Below are positions 54,759-64,000 of a stretch of 64,000 nucleotides of DNA, in pieces. Made by a program: the position numbers and the translations under genes. The notes under the pieces were generated by a model. That model did not search any database. It saw nothing but the letters and a program-made list of their open reading frames with translations, and was not told the DNA's origin. Positions within the stretch are counted from its first letter, which is position 1, and each line of letters begins with the position of its first letter. The DNA is from Ruminococcus sp. Phil11 (GTDB lineage: Bacteria > Bacillota > Clostridia > Oscillospirales > Ruminococcaceae), in contig MSGZ01000024.1 of assembly GCA_001940925.1 (NCBI GenBank), positions 246,090 through 310,089 on the forward strand, given 5' to 3'.

Positions 54759-56231
54759 TTATTCATCCGCCACGGTGATATTGATATCGACCGTCGGTTT
54801 GTTTTTGGACGTCGCGGAGACCCATACAATCCCGGAATTCTCCGGCAGCTCCACGCCGACATTGACCGTTTTCCGGCCGGCCTCGACATGCGGCATCATA
54901 TCGGCGGTCAGCTTCAGATCCGCAGCCTGGATCTTTTCCAGATCCTTCGGCCTGCCGATCAGTGTGACGGCTGTCTGACCGTTCGGCTGATCGAACTGAT
55001 ACTGATAGCCTGCACGCTTGTCATTCCGGTACGTGATCGTACTGTTCGGGATCCAGAACACCCGCTTTTCCAGGTCGGTGTCCTCCAGCGAAATATAGAC
55101 CTCGCTGATCTTGGTGACGACTTCATAATCACTGTTGACGTCCACTTTGTATTCCTCGTCAATGGAAAGTCCGCTGAGCGAAGGCATATTCACGCTGTAA
55201 TTGTCGATCGTCATCAGACCTTCCTTTTTATCGGGATCGTCTGTCCGCAGCGTCAGGAACAGATTGTTTTCCGTACCGTCGCCGTTGTCCTCGCCGTAGC
55301 CCGGCAGTGTGTACACCCCGTTCTCCGTCCGGATACGGATCCTCTGATAAATAAAGTTCTGAAATTCCTCATCATCCGGCATTTCCGAGATCGTACCGGA
55401 AACAGGCAGGGTGCGCTGGTAATAGACCGGGATCGTCACGGAGAAGCTTTCTCTCTGCAGCGAAAAGATCCCGTCACTGTTGTCGATCTCCTGCCCGCTG
55501 CTGTCCATCAGCGTAAATTCGGAAACATCGTTGAAGATCTTGGTCTCGGTCAGCTTGCCGCTGCTGCTGACCGTCAGGGAAACATGGTCGATCTGGTCGA
55601 TCATCGTGGACGGCCCCTTGACAATGACCGTTGCCGGATCGACAATGACCTGCTGCTCGTCGATCCGGGTCACGGCGTCTGCCGTTTTCAGATTCGGAAG
55701 CAGGACTGTCTTGCTGACCGGGACGGTTTTGCTGTCAAAGCGGTCGAGGCTGACATTGATCGTGGACGGATCCAGCTCGACCTTTGCCACACCGCCGCCG
55801 TCAGACCGGATCTCCTTGCCGCCGTTCTCTCTGTCCTTTTTATAGCGGAGACCCAGCGGGAGCGTCTGATCGCCGGGTTCCTTCTTCACTTTTTCGTAAT
55901 CGACATAAACCTCAACATCGTCTTCCTCAAGGCCGCCGATCGCGGAAATGTTGCCGAGGATGCTGACCTCGACCTTCTGCTTCGCGAGTGCCGCTTCGGA
56001 TTCCGGCAGGAGCTTCAGATTATAGCTTTCCGCCTGCGTATCCGCAAGATCGGCAGAAATGCCTTCGAGATGAAACGCTTTGGTCTGATCCGGCACAAGC
56101 ATTGTCCAGACCAGAAGTGCTGACGCAAATGATACGATCAGCAGAAACAGATTTGCACGGTTCGGCCTGCGCAGCTTCGGCAGTGCGGAAAGCAGTCCGC
56201 CTGTGCGCTTCGGTGTCTGGTTTTCTTCCAT
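54759..56231 (-). CDS. cdaR: YbbR-domain protein CdaR, regulator of c-di-AMP synthase
   Basis: The 490-residue protein has a basic cytoplasmic N-terminus, one membrane helix (about 27-45, LFLLIVSFASALLVWTML), and a large extracellular part of repeated YbbR domains (VSILGN-, VIVKGPSTMIDQIDHV-type and VTLIGRPKDLEKI segments). In other Firmicutes CdaR binds and modulates CdaA. It starts 3 bp after cdaA on the minus strand. glmM, usually third in this operon, is not next to it; instead a terminator follows. Confidence 0.92.
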   Translation of the reverse strand: MEENQTPKRTGGLLSALPKLRRPNRANLFLLIVSFASALLVWTMLVPDQTKAFHLEGISADLADTQAESYNLKLLPESEAALAKQKVEVSILGNISAIGGLEEDDVEVYVDYEKVKKEPGDQTLPLGLRYKKDRENGGKEIRSDGGGVAKVELDPSTINVSLDRFDSKTVPVSKTVLLPNLKTADAVTRIDEQQVIVDPATVIVKGPSTMIDQIDHVSLTVSSSGKLTETKIFNDVSEFTLMDSSGQEIDNSDGIFSLQRESFSVTIPVYYQRTLPVSGTISEMPDDEEFQNFIYQRIRIRTENGVYTLPGYGEDNGDGTENNLFLTLRTDDPDKKEGLMTIDNYSVNMPSLSGLSIDEEYKVDVNSDYEVVTKISEVYISLEDTDLEKRVFWIPNSTITYRNDKRAGYQYQFDQPNGQTAVTLIGRPKDLEKIQAADLKLTADMMPHVEAGRKTVNVGVELPENSGIVWVSATSKNKPTVDINITVADE

Positions 56232-56234
56232 CGG

Positions 56235-57209
56235 TCAGCCCTCCTTTCCCTTGACAGAGGACTGCTCCTTCTCAGCGGGCTGCTTTGAAGGCTCCCCCTC
56301 TGCTTTTTTGCGGAGGAACGGGATGATCGGTTTGCCGCGCAGCGCGTCCTTCTCCTGCGGGATCAGAACCTCGCGCAGCAGCTTTTCCAGTGTCAGCTTG
56401 GTATAATTGCGTGTCAGGATGCCGTCCCTTGCAACGGAGATCTGGCCGGTCTCCTCGGAGACGACGATGACAAGCGCATCGGAATTTTCGCTCATGCCGA
56501 TTGCGGCACGGTGACGGGAGCCGAGATGCTTGTCGATCAGCTCCTCCTTCTGCGGCTTCGGCAGGAAGCACGCTGCCGCCCAGATAATGCCGTCGCGCAT
56601 AATGACGGCACCGTCATGCAGCGGGGTCTTGTTGAAAAAGATATTGCCGAACAGCTCGACGCTCGGCTCCGCCTTCATGACGGTGCCGTTGGAGATCTGC
56701 TCGCCCAGTCTGGACGCACGCTCAATGACGATCAGTGCGCCGGTCGCCGTTCTGGAGAGCTGCGCGACCGATTCCGAGATGATCGGGATCGCACGGTTCC
56801 ACTGTGCGATGACGTCCTCGCTCTCGCCGATCGTCAGCTTGGAAAGGCGCGAGGTCGTTGCACCGAATTTTTCGAGAACACGGCGCAGCTCCGGCTGGAA
56901 CAGCACGATGATCGCGATCAGTCCGACATTCAGTGCCTTGCCGGAGATCCAGTTCACGACCTGGAGATTCATCCAGTCACTGAGCAGATAGACCCCCACG
57001 AGAATCAGGATGCCCTTGAGAAGTTGTCCGGCGCGCGTTTCGCGGACAAGCTTCAGGATCACGTAGATCATGCCGGTCAGCAATGCGATATCCAGCAAAT
57101 TGGCCGGATTGCTCATCGACTTGAACAGATTGTAAAGCTTATCAGTCACGGTTCCCAATGCCATCTGCATGGCCGCGAGACTGAGATAAGGCAGAAAACT
57201 ACCGAACAC
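56235..57209 (-). CDS. cdaA: Diadenylate cyclase CdaA
   Basis: This membrane enzyme makes the second messenger c-di-AMP from two ATP. The sequence has about three N-terminal membrane helices (about 35-110) and a DAC catalytic domain with the DGA motif (TPLHDGAVI) and the RHR motif (GSRHRAAIGMSE). A Lys/Glu-rich tail ends the protein. Two in-frame GTG codons lie at 57218 and 57209; AAGGGAG is 8 bp from the second and directly abuts the first, so 57209 (324 residues) is chosen. It is the first gene of an operon with cdaR. Confidence 0.94.
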   Translation of the reverse strand: MFGSFLPYLSLAAMQMALGTVTDKLYNLFKSMSNPANLLDIALLTGMIYVILKLVRETRAGQLLKGILILVGVYLLSDWMNLQVVNWISGKALNVGLIAIIVLFQPELRRVLEKFGATTSRLSKLTIGESEDVIAQWNRAIPIISESVAQLSRTATGALIVIERASRLGEQISNGTVMKAEPSVELFGNIFFNKTPLHDGAVIMRDGIIWAAACFLPKPQKEELIDKHLGSRHRAAIGMSENSDALVIVVSEETGQISVARDGILTRNYTKLTLEKLLREVLIPQEKDALRGKPIIPFLRKKAEGEPSKQPAEKEQSSVKGKEG

Positions 57210-57288
57210 GCCGCTCACTCCCTTCTGTCAGCCGTGCACCGGCCTTGATCGACATTTGTCTGGCACATTCCGTATTCATCCAACATAT

Positions 57289-57598: not shown

Positions 57599-57853
57599 AT
57601 GGAAACCAGAGTCGCAGTCATTGCGATCATCGTGCAGGACAGCAGCTCCGCCGTGAGCATCAACTCCCTGCTGCACGAATACGATACCTATATCATCGGG
57701 CGCATGGGCGTCCCGTACCGCTGCAAGGGCATCAGCATCATCAACATTGCCATTGATGCGCCGCAGGATGCGATCAACCGCTTGGCCGGTGCGATCGGCA
57801 GACTGAACGGCGTCAGTGCCAAGACGGTCTATGCGCCTGCCGCAGAAAACTGA
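57599..57853 (+). CDS. TM1266-like small ACT-type regulator (iron-only hydrogenase system regulator family)
   Basis: The 84-residue protein contains the family pattern TRVAVIAIIVQD, then LLHEYDTYIIGRMGVPYR, then ISIINIAIDAP and a final GVSAKTVY. The family resembles NikR/ACT-type beta-alpha-beta folds and is normally found beside [FeFe]-hydrogenase maturation genes. No hydrogenase gene is in this window; the gene instead stands directly upstream of the nitrogenase-like cluster. GAAAGGAA lies upstream of ATG 57599. A regulatory or sensing role is inferred from the family name. Confidence 0.85.
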   Translation: METRVAVIAIIVQDSSSAVSINSLLHEYDTYIIGRMGVPYRCKGISIINIAIDAPQDAINRLAGAIGRLNGVSAKTVYAPAAEN

Positions 57854-57996: not shown

Positions 57997-58755
57997 ATGA
58001 TCAAGCTTGCGGTCTACGGCAAGGGCGGGATCGGAAAATCCACGATCTCCGCAAATTTATCCGCGGTATTCGCGCAGAAGGGATACCGCGTCATGCAGAT
58101 CGGCTGCGATCCGAAGGCCGATTCCACGGCACTGCTGCACGGCGGCTCCCGCATCCCGACGGTGCTGCAGCTCGAACGCGAAAAGGGCAGCGGCATCACG
58201 CTTTCCGACCTCGTCACGGAGTCGGAGAGCGGCGTGATCTGCGTGGAAGCCGGCGGCCCCGTCCCCGGCGTCGGCTGCGCGGGCAGAGGCATCATCAATG
58301 CGCTGGAAACGCTGAAAAAGCTCGGTGCTTATGAGATATACAAGCCGGATATCGTCATTTATGACGTCCTCGGCGATGTGGTTTGCGGCGGCTTCTCCAT
58401 GCCGATGCGCAAGGGCTATGCCGACCGCGTGTTCGTCGTGACCTCCGGCGAAAAAATGGCGCGCTATGCCGCGGCCAATATCTGCATGGCGGTGCAGAAT
58501 TTTCAGGGCAGGGGATATGCGTCCCTCGGCGGACTGATCCTCAACCGGCGCAATGTCGCGGACGAGGACGCCGCTGCCGCGGAGCTCGCTAAGGATTTTG
58601 ACACGCGCGTCATCGGCGCGATCGACCGCTGTGCGGAGATTCAGCAGGCGGATGACATGGGTGTGCCGTTTGTGAATGCGTTTCCGGCATGTCCTGCCGT
58701 ACAGCAGCTCCGGCAGCTTGCGGACGCCATGCTTGCGGAATGCGGAGGGCTCTGA
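57997..58755 (+). CDS. NifH-like nitrogenase-family iron protein 1 (Nfl)
   Basis: This is predicted to be an ATP-dependent electron donor to a component-1-like partner. The 252-residue protein has the Walker A/deviant P-loop [10 protein letters not shown] (residues 7-16), the DPKADST switch, and both cysteines that ligate the bridging [4Fe-4S] cluster: [10 protein letters not shown] and [11 protein letters not shown]. These are the NifH/BchL/CfbC hallmarks and separate it from MinD/ParA ATPases. AAGGAG precedes ATG 57997. The component-1-like gene begins 2 bp after the stop. True nitrogen fixation is unlikely because no nif assembly genes are seen here. Confidence 0.93.
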
Positions 58756-58756
58756 T

Positions 58757-60058
58757 ATGCTGAACAATCCGCCCTTTGTGCGCATCGCGGATGCCGACCC
58801 TGCACACCTGTTTCCGGCCGGGCTGGAATATAACCCGCCCGCGCGCGGCATGTGGAACATCGTGCAAATGGGGATGCTGATTCCCGGTGCGCACCAGATT
58901 TACGGCTGTGCGCAGGGTTGTCTGCGCGGCGTCTGCCTGACTGCCGCCGAAATGAACGCGCTCGACCGCCTGAGCTGGATCTCCCTCACCGAGGAGGATA
59001 TGTTCAACGGTACGCTGGAGCAGAGCCTTGTGGACGGCGTTTCCGAGATCGTCCGGCAGCTTGACCCGCACCCGCCTGTCGTGCTGCTGTTTCTGAGCTG
59101 TATGCATCTGTTTGCGGGCTGTGATTTTGACGCGGTGATCGCCGACCTTTCCGCGGCGTTCCCGGATATTTGCTTTGTCGATTGCTATATGACGCCGACG
59201 ATGCGCGAATCCGTGCCGCCTGTTGTGCAGACCTGCCGGCAGATGTATACGCCGCTGAAAGCCCTGCCGAAAAATCCGAAGGCCGTCGGCATTGTCGGCA
59301 ATGACCGTCCGACCGATGAGGATTCCGAGCTTATGAAAATACTGCGCGGCGCGGGCTTTGCCGTCCGTGACCTGACGCGCTGCAAAACGTATGACGAATA
59401 TCTGCAGCTGGCAGATGCGTCGCTGAATCTGACCTATATCCCGACGGCTCATGCTGCGGGCGAGCTGCTCACGGAGCGGTTTGAGACGCCGTGCCTGCAT
59501 CTGCCGAACAGCTTTGATTATGATAAAATTGCAGAGAATTACAAGACGCTCTGCGGGGCACTCGGCATTTCCTGTCCTGATTTTTCGGCGGAGATGCAGG
59601 CAGCGGATCACGCGCTGGATGCGCTGAAAGCGGAGATCGGCGGGATTGCCGTTGCGGTCGATTACACCGCCGTGACGCAGCCGTTTTCCCTTGCTGCGCT
59701 GCTCTGTCAGCACGGCATCAACGTGAAATACGTCATTGCAGACACGGTCGGAGAGGATGCGGCGGCGTTCCGCTGGCTGCAGGAAAACCGTCCGGAGCTG
59801 CTGATCTATGCGCCGGCCAATGTCAATATGCTGCATCAGCATACGCAGGCAGCGGAGCCCGTGCTCGCGATCGGGCAGAAGGCGGCGTACTACTTCGCGA
59901 CCGATCACTTTGTCAATCTGATCCTGAACGGCGGATATTACGGCTTCTCCGGCATCCGGAAGATCGCGGAACTGACCGCAGAGGCTTACCGCACAACGAA
60001 GGATCGCCGCACCGTGCTCCGGCATAAGGGCTACGGCTGCGCGTCCTGCCTGCTGTGA
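58757..60058 (+). CDS. Nitrogenase component-1-like subunit (NifD/BchN/MarD-type), Nfl alpha
   Basis: The 433-residue protein is predicted to be a catalytic or cluster-bearing subunit of a nitrogenase-like reductase. RGMWNIVQMGMLIPGAHQI aligns in style with the NifD region before its second P-cluster cysteine. Then come Cys51, Cys55 and Cys60 (YGCAQGCLRGVC) and a later pair, Cys115 and Cys122 (LSCMHLFAGC). The position expected for the first P-cluster Cys (about residue 25) is in LEYNPPARG, with no Cys. C-terminal YYFATDHFVNLILNGGYYGFSG matches component-1 tails. ATG 58757 abuts the NifH-like stop; an upstream ATG (58676) lies inside that gene. Shorter than NifD (~490), similar to BchN/CfbD. 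Confidence 0.88.
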   Translation: MLNNPPFVRIADADPAHLFPAGLEYNPPARGMWNIVQMGMLIPGAHQIYGCAQGCLRGVCLTAAEMNALDRLSWISLTEEDMFNGTLEQSLVDGVSEIVRQLDPHPPVVLLFLSCMHLFAGCDFDAVIADLSAAFPDICFVDCYMTPTMRESVPPVVQTCRQMYTPLKALPKNPKAVGIVGNDRPTDEDSELMKILRGAGFAVRDLTRCKTYDEYLQLADASLNLTYIPTAHAAGELLTERFETPCLHLPNSFDYDKIAENYKTLCGALGISCPDFSAEMQAADHALDALKAEIGGIAVAVDYTAVTQPFSLAALLCQHGINVKYVIADTVGEDAAAFRWLQENRPELLIYAPANVNMLHQHTQAAEPVLAIGQKAAYYFATDHFVNLILNGGYYGFSGIRKIAELTAEAYRTTKDRRTVLRHKGYGCASCLL

Positions 60059-60071
60059 AAGGAGGACGGCT

Positions 60072-61223
60072 GTGAAGCATACTGCAAAAATCATTCCGTG
60101 CTATGCGGCGGACAGTGCCGGTGCCTGCTCTGCGCTCTACGAGCTGGGCGGCATGACCGTCGTGCACGATGCATCCGGCTGCAACTCAACCTTCGCGACC
60201 TTCGATGAGCCGCGCTGGTGGGATCAGCAGTCGATGACCTATATTTCCGCACTGACCGAGCTGGACGCGATCCTCGGCAATGACGAAAAGCTGATCGCCG
60301 ATGTGACCGCTGCCGCCGCTGACCAGAACCCGAAGTTCATCGCGGTCTGCGGCTCCCCGATGCCGATGATGATTGGCGTGGATTTCGATGCTGTCGCGTT
60401 TGAGATCGAGCAGCGCACCGGCATCCGCACCTTCGCGCTGCATACGAACGGAATGCATTCCTACCCGGAAGGCGCATCCGAGGCACTCCGCTGCATTGCG
60501 GAGGAATATGTCAGACCTGCGGAAACAAAGATCCCGAACGGTGTCAACCTGCTTGGTATGACGCCGCTGGATTTCGACAATCTGCATACAGCAGCAAGCA
60601 TCCGGGAATGGCTCGCGGAAAACGGCTTTGAAACGGTCGCCTGCTTTGCAATGGGCGATGCGCTCGAAACGCTCGCAAATGCTGCGAATGCGTCGGTCAG
60701 TCTGGTGCTTTCGCAGAGCGGACTGGCTGCGGCAGAATATATGCACGAAGCCTTCGGGATCCCGTATGTCTGCGGCGTGCCTTACGGAGAGGCGTTTTCC
60801 GCGCTGCTTGCGGATACCCTGCGGAATGCCGCAGCGGACGGAACCTGCGCATTTCCCTGCACGGAACGCGGGCAAGCCGGACAGACTGTCACGGTCATCG
60901 GGGAGGCGGTGTCCGCGGGAACGATCGCGGCGGCACTCGGCCTGACGGGATATGCGGCAAACGTGATCTGTCCGCTGCCGCATGACAAAAGACTGCTCAC
61001 AGCCGGCGATTCTGACGCCTTTGCAGAGGACGAGATCGCCGGGGCACTGGCGGAGATACAGCCGGAAACGGTCATCGCGGACCCGCTGTACCGGTTTATC
61101 CTGCCGAACGCTGCAAAACTGATCGGGCTGCCGCATACGGCGTTTTCGGGGCGGTGCTATGATAAGATCATCCCCGACCTGACGGGAAACCGTTTTGATG
61201 CATGGTATAAGGAGATGCTTTGA
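60072..61223 (+). CDS. Nitrogenase component-1-like subunit (NifK-type), Nfl beta
   Basis: The 383-residue protein probably pairs with the preceding gene product in an alpha-beta complex. Cys10, Cys37 (VVHDASGCNST) and Cys93 (IAVCGSPMPMMIG) have the spacing (27 and 56) of the NifK P-cluster ligands (25 and 58). Cys19 is an additional cysteine. The VVHDASGCNS segment corresponds to the conserved GC stretch of component-1 beta subunits. It lacks the C-terminal extension of NifK. The start is GTG 60072 with AAAGGAGG; the small membrane protein gene follows after one base. The substrate is unknown. Confidence 0.87.
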   Translation: MKHTAKIIPCYAADSAGACSALYELGGMTVVHDASGCNSTFATFDEPRWWDQQSMTYISALTELDAILGNDEKLIADVTAAAADQNPKFIAVCGSPMPMMIGVDFDAVAFEIEQRTGIRTFALHTNGMHSYPEGASEALRCIAEEYVRPAETKIPNGVNLLGMTPLDFDNLHTAASIREWLAENGFETVACFAMGDALETLANAANASVSLVLSQSGLAAAEYMHEAFGIPYVCGVPYGEAFSALLADTLRNAAADGTCAFPCTERGQAGQTVTVIGEAVSAGTIAAALGLTGYAANVICPLPHDKRLLTAGDSDAFAEDEIAGALAEIQPETVIADPLYRFILPNAAKLIGLPHTAFSGRCYDKIIPDLTGNRFDAWYKEML

Positions 61224-61224
61224 C

Positions 61225-61626
61225 ATGAGACACTGGAAACATATTCTGATTGCGTATATTTTTCATCTGGTTCCGATCATCCTCGGTTTTGTGTCAGGCA
61301 GTGACCGGTTCCATTTCATGGGGTTCTGCGCGGTCGCCGGCACGATCGCCTATATCATCTACTGGTGCATAGCAAACCGGAAGCAGTTTCTCTCGTGGGC
61401 GGTATTCGTGCATTTTCTGATCGGTGCCGCCGTGCAGATCATTCTGAATGCGGCGGAGATCATTCAGCCTGACGGCGGTATGTTTTCGGGGCTCGGACAA
61501 TATTTTTATATCATCTATGTGCAGGTTTCCCTTGTTCTGGTCGGCCTCACGAATCTGATCCTGTGGCTGCTCGACAGACGCCGCAGAAAGAAACAGGCTG
61601 CATCTGAGGATGCGGCGGAAGGATAA
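61225..61626 (+). CDS. Four-helix membrane protein within the nitrogenase-like cluster
   Basis: The 133-residue protein has four hydrophobic segments (about 5-24, 29-48, 55-78, 95-118) and a basic/acidic C-terminal tail ([13 protein letters not shown]). No known domain is recognised. It starts one base after the beta subunit stop, with AAGGAG at 61208-61213, and the second NifH-like gene begins 8 bp after it ends, so it is certainly in the operon. A role in membrane attachment or transport for the system is inference. Confidence 0.75.
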
Positions 61627-61634
61627 AGAAAAAT

Positions 61635-62405
61635 ATGATAAAGCTGGCAATTTACGGCAAGGGCGGCATCGGCAAATCGACCTGCACCGCGAACCTCGCG
61701 GCGGCGTTTGCAATGCGCGGCAAAAAAGTCATTCAGATCGGCTGCGACCCGAAGGCCGATTCCACGATCAATCTGCTGAACGGGGAACCGGTCACGCCGG
61801 TCATGGACTGGATGCGCGACCACGACGACGAGCCGGACAGCCTAGACCAGATCGCGAAGGAAGGCTTCGGCGGGGTGCTCTGCATTGAGACAGGCGGCCC
61901 GACACCGGGGCTCGGCTGCGCGGGGCGCGGCATCATCACGACATTTTCGCTGCTCAAGGAGCTGCGCCTGTTCGAGACGTATCAGCCGGATGTCGTGCTC
62001 TATGATGTGCTCGGCGACGTTGTCTGCGGCGGGTTTGCCGCACCGATCCGGGAGGGCTACGCGGAGCAGGTGCTGATTGTCACCTCCGGCGAAAAAATGG
62101 CGCTCTACGCCGCGAACAATATCAACAATGCGGTGAAGAATTTTGAGGACAGAAGCTATGCCAAAGTCCGCGGACTGATTCTCAACCGCCGCAATGTCAC
62201 TGATGAGGAAGCAAAGGTGCGTGCTTTTGCGGCATCCGCCGGACTTGCGATCGCGGCGGATATCCCGCGCTCGGACGATATCACAAAGTACGAGGATACG
62301 GGCAAAACGGTCATTGAGGGCGACCCGGACTGCGAGACCGCAAAGCGGTTCTTTGCGCTGGCCGATCTGCTGATCGGTGAGGAAGCGCAGAAAGGCAGCG
62401 AATGA
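61635..62405 (+). CDS. NifH-like nitrogenase-family iron protein 2 (Nfl)
   Basis: This second iron protein (256 residues) has [19 protein letters not shown], and both cluster cysteines ([10 protein letters not shown] and [11 protein letters not shown]). It resembles the first NifH-like protein closely in the P-loop and cluster regions but diverges between (about residues 45-80) and at the C-terminus. That fits a partner for a different component-1 protein, perhaps the one starting at 63759. It lies 8 bp after the membrane protein gene, and its stop overlaps the GNAT start (ATGA at 62402). Confidence 0.93.
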
Positions 62406-62872
62406 AACAGGAATCGTCCGGCGGCATCACGGTCATGCGCGCCGAAGAAGAATGGCAGCGCGCCGGTGCCTATTCCGTGCGCATTCAGGGCATGAACCGG
62501 CAGCATCATATTTCGCTGCGCGAGGAATTTGACGAGCACGACGGCGAAGGCACAAGGTACATCGTCCTGCTGGATGACGGCTATCCGTTTGCGACATGCC
62601 GGTTTTATCCGCTGGATGCGAACCGCGTGATGCTCGGGCGGGTCGTTGTGCTGCCGGAATACCGCGGAAAGCAGTACGGCGTGAAAACCGTCGCAGAAGC
62701 GGAGAAATGGATGCGGGAGCTTGGCTATCAGACCGCTGAGATCGAGAGCCGCACGGAAGCAGTCGGGTTCTACGAAAAACTCGGCTACCGCAAAACCGGC
62801 GGCGGGATCGTCCGGAGCGGCGTGTTCGACTGCGTCCGCATGACAAAGCCGCTCACCGGAACGGAAGGCTGA
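62402..62872 (+). CDS. GNAT-family acetyltransferase in the nitrogenase-like cluster
   Basis: The 156-residue protein has strand beta-4 with [23 protein letters not shown] (the acetyl-CoA binding RxxxxG/A loop) and a terminal [13 protein letters not shown], both GNAT hallmarks. It overlaps the second NifH-like gene by 4 bp and so is translationally coupled. It may modify a small amine or simply travel with the operon. The substrate is unknown. Confidence 0.88.
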
Positions 62873-62892
62873 CAGCCGGAAAGGAATCTTCG

Positions 62893-63270
62893 ATGATCAA
62901 AGGCATTCACCATATCTCCATGAAATGCGGCACGCAGGAGGCGTTCAGCAAAGCAAAATCGTTTTATCTGGATGTGCTCGGCATGACTGCCGTCCGGGAA
63001 TGGGCGGACGGCATCATGCTCTCCGCCGGGAACTGCATGATTGAGATTTTCAATAACGGTGCGGGTATTACCGAAAAGGGCGCAATCAGGCATTTTGCGC
63101 TGCTGACTGACAATATCGACGCACTTGCTGAAAAAATCACACAGGCCGGATACCGCTTTTTCATTGCGCCGGATGACCGCGTCATACAATCCGACCCGCC
63201 GTACCCGATCCGGATCGCATTCTGCACCGGGCCGCTCGGCGAGGAAATTGAGCTGTTTCAGGAACGGTAA
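62893..63270 (+). CDS. VOC/glyoxalase-fold protein
   Basis: The 125-residue protein is made of two beta-alpha-beta-beta-beta modules typical of the vicinal-oxygen-chelate superfamily. Candidate metal ligands are His6 or His7 in GIHHISM, the Glu in CMIEIFNNG, a His in IRHFALLTDN, and the late Glu in GEEIELFQ. Such proteins are lyases, isomerases or binding proteins; the activity cannot be assigned. AAAGGAA lies upstream of ATG 62893, 20 bp after the GNAT stop. Confidence 0.85.
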   Translation: MIKGIHHISMKCGTQEAFSKAKSFYLDVLGMTAVREWADGIMLSAGNCMIEIFNNGAGITEKGAIRHFALLTDNIDALAEKITQAGYRFFIAPDDRVIQSDPPYPIRIAFCTGPLGEEIELFQER

Positions 63271-63285
63271 GCAAAAGGAGCAAAA

Positions 63286-63762
63286 ATGTTCAGTACAGAT
63301 TCAAATGAGATCGAATTATTATATCTGTTCGGCGGCAGACGCCTGCTGATCATCGTCGGCATCGTGCTGTACCTGATCGCGGGTGCCGCGCTGCTGATGT
63401 TCATTCCGCAGACGTATGACTGGGTGCGCGCGGAGGCAAGATACACCGTGCAGGCCGATATCGTATCCTCGAAGGTGGATTATTTCGGGAGCAGCCGCAA
63501 GAAAGAGGACAAGCGGTACGAAGTCACCATGGAATATGAGATCAACGGCATCCGGCGGACGCATACGGAAACCTGCTCGCATGAGCCGACCGGCAAGCAA
63601 AAGCTGCGTGTTTACTGCACACGGGACGGCCGCTGGGAGGTTCTGGAGTATAATATTCCTGCAATGATATTTCTGACCGCGATCGCAGTCTGTGCCGCGA
63701 TCTACGGGACGACCATGCTGCGCGCGGCGAAGGAGCGGAAAAATACAGGAGAATCTGCATGA
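63286..63762 (+). CDS. DUF3592-like two-helix membrane protein
   Basis: The 158-residue protein has one helix at about 18-42, an extracytoplasmic beta-rich domain (about 45-125), and a second helix at about 125-147. The middle YTVQADIVSSKVDYF, then YEVTMEYEINGIRRTHTE, then a YCTRDGRW turn is the usual DUF3592 pattern. The role is unknown. AAAGGAG precedes ATG 63286. Its stop overlaps the next start (ATGA at 63759), so it belongs to the same operon. Confidence 0.78.
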   Translation: MFSTDSNEIELLYLFGGRRLLIIVGIVLYLIAGAALLMFIPQTYDWVRAEARYTVQADIVSSKVDYFGSSRKKEDKRYEVTMEYEINGIRRTHTETCSHEPTGKQKLRVYCTRDGRWEVLEYNIPAMIFLTAIAVCAAIYGTTMLRAAKERKNTGESA

Positions 63763-64000
63763 ATCACAACGCATACAGCATCACCGCGGCGGAGCTTGCC
63801 GCGGGAGGCTTTGACAATCTGCCGCCGGAGCTGAACAGTGCGAAGCATATGATCTACAGCTCGCCGGCAACGCTCGACTACAATTCACCGGGCGCAAAGG
63901 GCTTCGGCGTCAAGCGTGCGGGGCTCGCGATTCCCGGCTCTGTGATGCTGCTGGTCGCGCCGGGCTGCTGCGGCCGCAATACTGCGCTGCTCAACGAGCT
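63759..64000 (+). CDS. Nitrogenase component-1-like protein, 5' part only (runs off window)
   Basis: The 80 complete codons read here encode an N-terminus with HMIYSSPATLDYNSPGAK, then RAGLAIPGSVMLLVAPGCCGRNTALL. The PGCCGRNT segment has the place and look of the P-cluster cysteine region of component-1 proteins, and DYNSPGAKGFG parallels LEYNPPARG in the alpha-like subunit. It is therefore a third component-1 family member and not a repeat of the first two. ATG 63759 overlaps the preceding stop. A fourth subunit may follow beyond the window. Partial at 3' end. Confidence 0.75.
   Translation, partial: MNHNAYSITAAELAAGGFDNLPPELNSAKHMIYSSPATLDYNSPGAKGFGVKRAGLAIPGSVMLLVAPGCCGRNTALLNE

Follow-up and report, generated by a model that had tools for sequence, protein, structure and literature searches.

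HydG is described as the source of the carbon monoxide (CO) and cyanide (CN) ligands of the H-cluster of [FeFe]-hydrogenases (excerpts of PMC11736057 and PMC9431212); both ligands are made from tyrosine, and the resulting Fe(CO)2CN synthon is passed to HydE (excerpt of PMC11736057). For the anaerobic Hyp route (HypCD), the excerpted text of PMC12134894 leaves the source of CO unresolved, and nitrogenase iron proteins are reported, in the accessible part of PMC9571451, to convert CO2 to CO, an activity enhanced by ATP. Here we describe an operon of Ruminococcus sp. Phil11 in which genes for nitrogenase-like proteins run into hypFCDE. It lies at the end of a 64,000-nucleotide stretch (the window; positions 246090-310089 of the forward strand of contig MSGZ01000024.1, which is C24 of genome G000) and continues beyond it. 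The operon is real, conserved and repeatedly exchanged, and we consider it likely that it constitutes a HydG-independent route of H-cluster maturation, with a nitrogenase-like reductase taking the place of the tyrosine lyase HydG. The basis for this proposal is gene content, linkage and exclusion; the chemical steps we infer, each with lower confidence.

The main features of the operon are listed below. Sequence beyond the window end was read on stretch L002, whose positions are converted to window positions by adding 57910.

57599..57853, + strand: TM1266-family putative regulator of [FeFe]-hydrogenase systems (TIGR03959, 101.2 bits against a cut-off of 60.8; PF21699; start set by eye)
57997..58755, + strand: H1, NifH-like ATP-dependent iron protein (PF00142, Fer4_NifH, 272.7 bits)
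58757..60058, + strand: D1, component-1 subunit (PF00148, 87.4 bits; best start the ATG at 58757)
60072..61223, + strand: K1, second component-1 subunit, the presumed partner of D1 (PF00148, 112.6 bits)
61635..62405, + strand: H2, second NifH-like iron protein (PF00142, 293.8 bits)
63759..65048, + strand: D2, component-1 subunit, of which the window holds the first 80 codons (PF00148, 97.3 bits on the whole protein)
past the window end: K2, fourth component-1 protein (PF00148, 59.8 bits)
beyond D2 in L002, in order: small open reading frame, K2, GNAT, hypF, hypC, hypD, 56-codon open reading frame, hypE

The TM1266-family regulator is the upstream member of the nitrogenase-like cluster and is also present in most of the relatives' stretches. 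The first-pass annotation of the window had reported two NifH-like proteins with both cluster cysteines and three component-1-like proteins, and both statements hold: H1 and H2 match PF00142, with the P-loop GKGGIGKST and both cluster cysteines invariant in the aligned rows (20 of H1 and 13 of H2), and D1, K1 and the completed D2 match PF00148 (the 80-codon piece of D2 in the window, scanned alone, gave no Pfam match). Extending past position 64000, as had been proposed there, completed D2 and then brought in K2 and hypFCDE; because hypFCDE lie past the window end, the link to the hyp genes had been missed. That annotation took the locus to be an uncharacterised nitrogenase-like reductase, perhaps forming two complexes. 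The presence of two iron proteins and two component-1 pairs, outside Nif, Bch and Cfb, agrees with this, but the idea of a free-standing reductase is probably wrong: since the operon runs into hypFCDE and, in relatives, shares its stretch with hydE and hydF, it most likely acts in [FeFe]-hydrogenase maturation. It had also been considered that accessory genes of a characterised clade might stand just outside the window. Accessory genes are found there, and they are those of hydrogenase maturation rather than of Mar or Cfb.

Three kinds of described system invite comparison. With HydEFG the locus and its relatives have in common HydF (in all 26 genomes that carry the D1 clade), HydA (12 of 12 tested), HydE (read in 18 of the 18 D1 genomes looked at), the TM1266 regulator and, in L033, the aspartate ammonia-lyase gene aspA directly after hydF, a gene placed close to hyd operons in the excerpt of PMC11736057; unlike in that system, no HydG scores over its cut-off and a nitrogenase-like reductase stands with hydE and hydF. 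With HypCDEF maturation of [NiFe]-hydrogenases it shares HypF, HypC, HypD and HypE over their cut-offs, with the ligand-making cysteines kept, whereas HypA and a [NiFe]-hydrogenase are absent from the five genomes tested and the hyp genes are linked to nitrogenase-like genes and often to hydE or hydF. NifEN, dark-operative protochlorophyllide oxidoreductase (DPOR; BchNB), CfbCD and MarHDK likewise combine an iron protein with a component-1 pair, and structure models of D1 and K1 match their folds, but identity in the structure matches listed is 12-20% and the genomic partners are different.

Genome sets of the family (148 genomes) and of the class (391 genomes) were searched for HydG, defined as a TIGR03955 match over cut-off, and for D1. 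In the family, where D1 carriers were picked from PF00148 matches together with neighbourhood matches, PF00148 was found in 36 of 148 genomes at an expect value of 0.001 or better and in 26 over the cut-off; 12 were counted as D1, those left out being nif-type, other clusters or weak matches. In the class, a D1 profile search returned 22 of 391 genomes at 1e-20 or better, of which 16 were strong (458 bits or more) and six weak (80-367 bits; G294, G219, G325, G357, G413 and G288). The 12 and the 16 overlap and give 26 distinct carriers of the D1 clade. (The HydG status of the class D1 matches was taken from best E-values.)

HydG over cut-off was found in none of these 26 genomes, all of which have D1 as their core protein, and it was present in 62 of the 148 family genomes (63 with G049, where it is in pieces) and in 240 of the 391 class genomes. 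HydF occurs in 79 family genomes, including all 12 with D1-K1. Of the 17 HydF-positive family genomes without HydG over cut-off, 12 carry D1-K1, one is G049 and four have neither; among HydF-positive family genomes, D1-K1 was thus seen in 0 of 63 with HydG versus 12 of 16 without (Fisher p = 3.6e-11). In the class, HydG was found in 0 of the 16 strong D1 carriers versus 240 of the 375 others (p = 1.5e-7, for HydG alone), and in five of the six weak matches (all but G288). A HydF search of 27 chosen class genomes gave 26 over cut-off, and the 14 D1 genomes not yet counted were all positive. The HydG matches of G356, G462, G499 and G514 are under cut-off by E-value. (ThiH as a hidden HydG was considered and rejected; sub-cut-off HydG matches of four D1 genomes score as ThiH, over the ThiH cut-off.)

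The rest of the [FeFe]-hydrogenase machinery is kept in the D1 genomes. Each of the 18 best HydA proteins that were read, those of the 12 family D1 genomes included, has at least two of the three motifs that we take to mark the H-cluster. Six HydE proteins scored 545, 511, 541, 527, 488 and 517 bits against an NCBIfam cut-off of 255, and the HydF scores were 538, 562, 576, 510, 539 and 548 bits against 326. In the window's own genome, hydE lies on contig C7 (527 bits) and hydF on contig C42 (510 bits), both away from the operon.

D1 and HydG alternate inside five genera. In g1, G000 carries D1-K1, and in G108 hydE and hydG are adjacent; D1 is found in G035 and HydG in G143 (g36); D1 in G205, G282, G304, G346, G437 and G455 and HydG in G232, G387 and G473 (g185); D1 in G356 and G462 and HydG in G480 (g265); and D1 in G522 and HydG in G468 (g318). 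A tree was built of 46 HydE proteins, of which 18 come from D1 genomes (of the 26) and 28 from HydG genomes; on it the label changes between D1 and HydG eight times, at least four of them on well-supported branches. The D1 proteins of operon types A and B (see below), together with that of G499, form one clade (30 rows; Shimodaira-Hasegawa-like approximate likelihood ratio test (SH-aLRT) 100) that stands apart from type C. The type A D2 proteins (18 rows, SH-aLRT 100) form one clade, as do the H2 proteins (18 rows, SH-aLRT 100), whose members occur with D2-K2 and hyp genes. (Note that the D1, D2 and H2 trees were made by a quick method and contain some open forks and two long branches.)

Across genomes the operon comes in two main forms. 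Fourteen of the 26 genomes have type A, with hypF, hypC, hypD and hypE, the window's operon included, and ten have type B; G022 and G499 are assigned to neither, G022 because its H1-D1-K1 genes lie on a contig of only 3.3 kb. Overall, hydE and/or hydF share a stretch with D1-K1 in 19 of the 26 genomes (11 of the 14 with type A and eight of the ten with type B). A separate scan of relatives yielded ten loci from 19 pattern-matching stretches, of which L010 and L017 share an isolate name. Gene order, which the first-pass annotation had proposed to compare across genomes, is conserved in independent genomes, far above chance.

In G065, G071 and G113 the type A order is TM1266-hydF-hydE-H1-D1-K1-H2-D2-K2-hypF-hypC-hypD-hypE, and G035 has the same order with hydF on a separate contig. 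In family f46 (G205, G282, G346, G437, G304 and G455) it is H2-D2-K2-hypF-hypC-hypD-hypE-TM1266-D1-K1-hydF, with no H1 seen in the stretches of that family; the operon of G455 is split over two contigs. Those of G304 and G455 continue with hydE, which was not seen on the stretches of the remaining four genomes. In family f44, G356 shows hydF-hydE-H1-D1-K1-H2-D2-K2-hypF-hypC-hypD-hypE, and in G268 and G462 the stretches carry the nitrogenase-like genes and the hyp genes, with neither hydE nor hydF. Across three families, the hyp genes lie next to D2-K2 and D1-K1 or between them. In type B, H1-D1-K1 is accompanied by a binding protein (10 of 10) and by a FecCD/BtuC-type permease and ATPase (9 of 10), which belong to the class of metal-chelate and corrinoid importers; the type B stretches read contain no D2-K2 and no hyp genes. 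(In the type B stretch L028, positions 1770-2855 encode an ATP-binding cassette transporter ATPase that carries a fused TM1266 domain at its C-terminus; hydE and H1-D1-K1 are its neighbours.) The operon occurs in Clostridia, and the names of several of the genomes mark them as metagenome genomes from rumen, omasum or pig. The list of D1 homologues includes a protein named from Ruminococcus albus, an important producer of hydrogen in the rumen.

The Hyp proteins of the window's operon score as canonical members of their families: HypF 748 bits with TIGR00143 (cut-off 466), HypC 74 bits with PF01455 (28.5), HypD 404 bits with TIGR00075 (193) and HypE 411 bits with TIGR02124 (252). Cys2 of HypC is conserved in 12 of 12 rows, the C-terminal cysteine of HypE in 5 of 5, and the cysteines of the CGTH and CPVC motifs of HypD in 10 of 10; roles of such cysteines in ligand synthesis are given in part in the excerpt of PMC12134894, and for the rest are general background. 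A [NiFe]-hydrogenase as the partner of the operon was sought and rejected, the large subunit (PF00374) being absent from all five type A genomes of the family, that of the window and one genome that is 99% complete in two contigs among them. HypD occurs in 11 of the 148 family genomes, of which five (G000, G035, G065, G071 and G113) carry this operon and no PF00374 match and six have PF00374; HypA was found in none of the five and in five of the six. PF00374 itself occurs in seven family genomes, the seventh being G022, which is without HypD. Neither hypA nor hypB is among the open reading frames of the operon that were scanned; HypA was also sought genome-wide, and no search was aimed at HypB.

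The nitrogenase-like proteins fall outside the Nif, Bch and Cfb families. With the NCBIfam equivalog models, H1 and H2 score 284.8 and 302.4 bits for NifH (cut-off 394), 177.9 and 206.4 for BchL (345) and 285.7 and 297.0 for CfbC (402), K1 scores 53.4 against 490 in the BchN/B test and 25.7 against 268 in the CfbD test, and the component-1 proteins score far under the cut-offs of NifD and NifK. With every score under its cut-off, membership of Nif, Bch or Cfb was rejected. No nif, bch or cfb accessory genes were found among the open reading frames scanned, which extends what had been noted for the window. In the PDB, the Fe protein finds its best match in a chain of the Mar complex, H1 scoring about equally with the Mar-complex and Nif iron proteins (218 and 216 bits). 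A sequence search of the PDB with D1 gave only weak matches to NifE. The AlphaFold model of D1 (predicted local distance difference test score 88.3) matches nitrogenase component 1, best that of the iron nitrogenase and the Mar complex, and the model of K1 (85.9) best matches NifEN and DPOR. Four cysteines are invariant in 15 aligned rows of D1, one of which aligns with a cysteine of NifE. Another NifE cysteine, which we take to be at the cofactor-ligand position, is replaced by serine in K1 (hhalign 99%) and by isoleucine in D1 (hhalign 73%, and so less sure); D1 aligns to NifE with a probability of 73% and to NifD with 0.3%. The models and alignments suggest that D1-K1 may hold an electron-relaying cluster and a cavity free for substrate, and would not be a FeMo-cofactor enzyme. 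(Public records of K1-type proteins, P0008, P0014, P0038, P0096 and others, carry the name 'oxalate:formate antiporter', which is at odds with PF00148 and is likely a misannotation.)

We propose that H1-D1-K1, helped by H2-D2-K2, would use ATP to supply the iron-carbonyl-cyanide precursor that elsewhere is the product of HydG. As in synthesis of the [NiFe] cofactor, carbamoyl phosphate would be the source of cyanide, formed by HypF and HypE and then attached to iron by HypCD. Low-potential chemistry would be the task of the iron proteins and component-1 pairs, most likely the conversion of CO2 to CO and/or the remodelling of Fe(CN)2CO towards Fe(CO)2CN, with the precursor bound in the D1-K1 cavity, and the product would be handed to HydE and then to HydF for completion. 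In type B, with its importer instead of H2-D2-K2 and the hyp genes, the precursor or cyanide may be imported or may be made otherwise, for example by D1-K1. The most economical model is that Hyp proteins provide Fe-CN, the nitrogenase-like pairs make or add CO and adjust the ligands, and HydE and HydF finish the cluster. We put forward tentatively a more specific version, in which a nitrogenase-like enzyme would both reduce CO2 to CO and remodel the Fe(CN)2CO made by the Hyp proteins, so that the diiron precursor of the H-cluster arises with no tyrosine.

Several observations weigh against replacement of HydG. In seven of the 26 genomes, the window's own included, the stretch read carries neither hydE nor hydF (one of these stretches is only 3.3 kb long). 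The cyanide source of type B is unexplained, because the type B stretches are without hyp genes and HypD is absent from all type B genomes of the family. Four family genomes are HydF-positive with neither HydG nor D1-K1 (G016, G043, G088 and G116, at 55%, 89%, 89% and 98% completeness), and G022 is a D1 carrier with a PF00374 match. The type C loci (L099-L102) encode H1, D1-like and K1-like proteins and a metal-chelate importer; because they have no hydE or hydF nearby and three of their four genomes have HydG, the wider D1 family appears to do something else, and these loci probably serve another nitrogenase-like function. The line between strong and weak D1 matches (at least 458 versus at most 367 bits) was set after the scores had been seen, and when all 22 class matches are counted HydG is found in 5 of 22 versus 235 of 369 genomes (p = 1.9e-4); independently of HydG, the line is upheld by the D1 tree, since the 26 counted genomes are in one clade and four weak (type C) loci are outside it. 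In addition, all Fisher values are too optimistic because the genomes are related, and strictly independent tree pairs on supported branches number four, too few for a significant sign test.

Two other readings keep a part for the nitrogenase-like proteins in metallocofactor assembly. In one, they would work on a metal chelate, whether imported or stored, and so provide iron for the H-cluster, and CO and cyanide would come from another source. The binding protein and FecCD-type importer of type B would fit such iron delivery, and the excerpt of PMC9431212 reports that a HydG was not recognised in five of eight Clostridium acetogens, for which its authors suggest an atypical HydG or free diatomics, and quotes about 1% activation in vitro without HydG; yet iron delivery leaves unexplained both the absence of HydG from all 26 genomes and the link, in 14 of them, to hypFCDE, whose products make diatomic ligands, and we regard it as unlikely. 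In the other, H2-D2-K2, the Hyp proteins and H1-D1-K1 build a different Fe-CN-CO cofactor and the absence of HydG is a side effect. In the systems already known, Fe(CN)2CO is the product of HypCD, and the five genomes without a [NiFe]-hydrogenase or HypA should therefore have another user for this moiety; that the user is a different cofactor is nevertheless rather improbable, considering that 11 of the 14 type A genomes have hydF and/or hydE on the stretch, that all 12 genomes tested retain HydA and that the alternation of D1-K1 with HydG is repeated.

The two remaining readings are the least likely. An ordinary reductase of a small substrate (N2, protochlorophyllide, Ni-sirohydrochlorin or a thioether) that is a chance neighbour of hydrogenase genes would share the folds seen here, and the Mar chain is the best PDB match of the iron protein, but the equivalog scores, the absence of partner genes among the open reading frames scanned, the serine and isoleucine at the presumed cofactor position, the linkage to hydE and hydF and the exclusion of HydG make it very unlikely. 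That hypFCDE serve a [NiFe]-hydrogenase missed by the assemblies would agree with how canonical the Hyp proteins are; it hardly deserves credence in view of five type A family genomes without PF00374 or HypA, one of them nearly complete, and of the position of the hyp genes in three families. Replacement of HydG is the reading we retain.

If this is correct, there is a second biological way to the Fe-CO-CN unit of the H-cluster, and nitrogenase-like enzymes gain a role as hydrogenase maturases; in the more specific version, both classical routes of hydrogenase maturation would meet nitrogenase chemistry in a single pathway. It would also bear on the source of the CO ligand under anaerobic conditions, an open matter in the excerpt of PMC12134894; should CO2 be reduced to CO for the remodelling proposed above, the same enzyme would answer where the hydrogenase CO of these anaerobes comes from. 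A HydG-free route could account for HydA-bearing genomes without HydG, and the operon is a testable gene set for heterologous production of hydrogenase. Among the open-access PubMed Central papers listed by our searches, we saw no earlier description of a nitrogenase-like system accompanied by hyd or hyp genes.

The other genes of the operon within the window are as follows.

61195..61626, + strand: small membrane-like protein (by eye; start uncertain, the TTG at 61195 being listed and an ATG at 61225 possible; in 3 loci)
62402..62872, + strand: GNAT acetyltransferase (PF00583, 59.1 bits; in 4 loci)
62893..63270, + strand: VOC/glyoxalase-fold protein (PF00903, 39.8 bits; in 2 loci)
63286..63762, + strand: second small membrane-like protein (by eye; in 3 loci)

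The two membrane proteins, the GNAT and the VOC protein are present as first described. Their genes were found in only two to four of the 22 loci compared (window locus included, and some loci incomplete), and because they are absent from most relatives we dropped them as functional parts; they are probably passengers of the operon. The tight packing that had been noted is likewise borne out: neighbouring genes are separated by 1-20 bp or overlap by 4 bp, provided that D1 starts at 58757 and the first membrane-like protein at 61225 (the TTG start at 61195 would give a 29-bp overlap with K1). Upstream, on the minus strand (54759-57218), are genes that by eye look to encode a YbbR-domain protein and a diadenylate cyclase.

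A few further loci deserve mention. In G116 (HydF- and HydA-positive), L038 holds another NifH-like and D/K-like cluster with a FecCD-type importer. In G113, the product of the gene at L026:84-1769, next but one to hypE, matches PF02906 in part (90.8 bits). On contig C40 of the window's own genome, L108:5404-7077 encodes a protein with a partial PF02906 match (86.6 bits), ferredoxin domains and a weak match to monomeric [FeFe]-hydrogenase (100 versus 450 bits), and adjoins a gene with a weak DivIVA match. The PF02906 proteins of L026 and L108 are possibly sensory or atypical hydrogenases.

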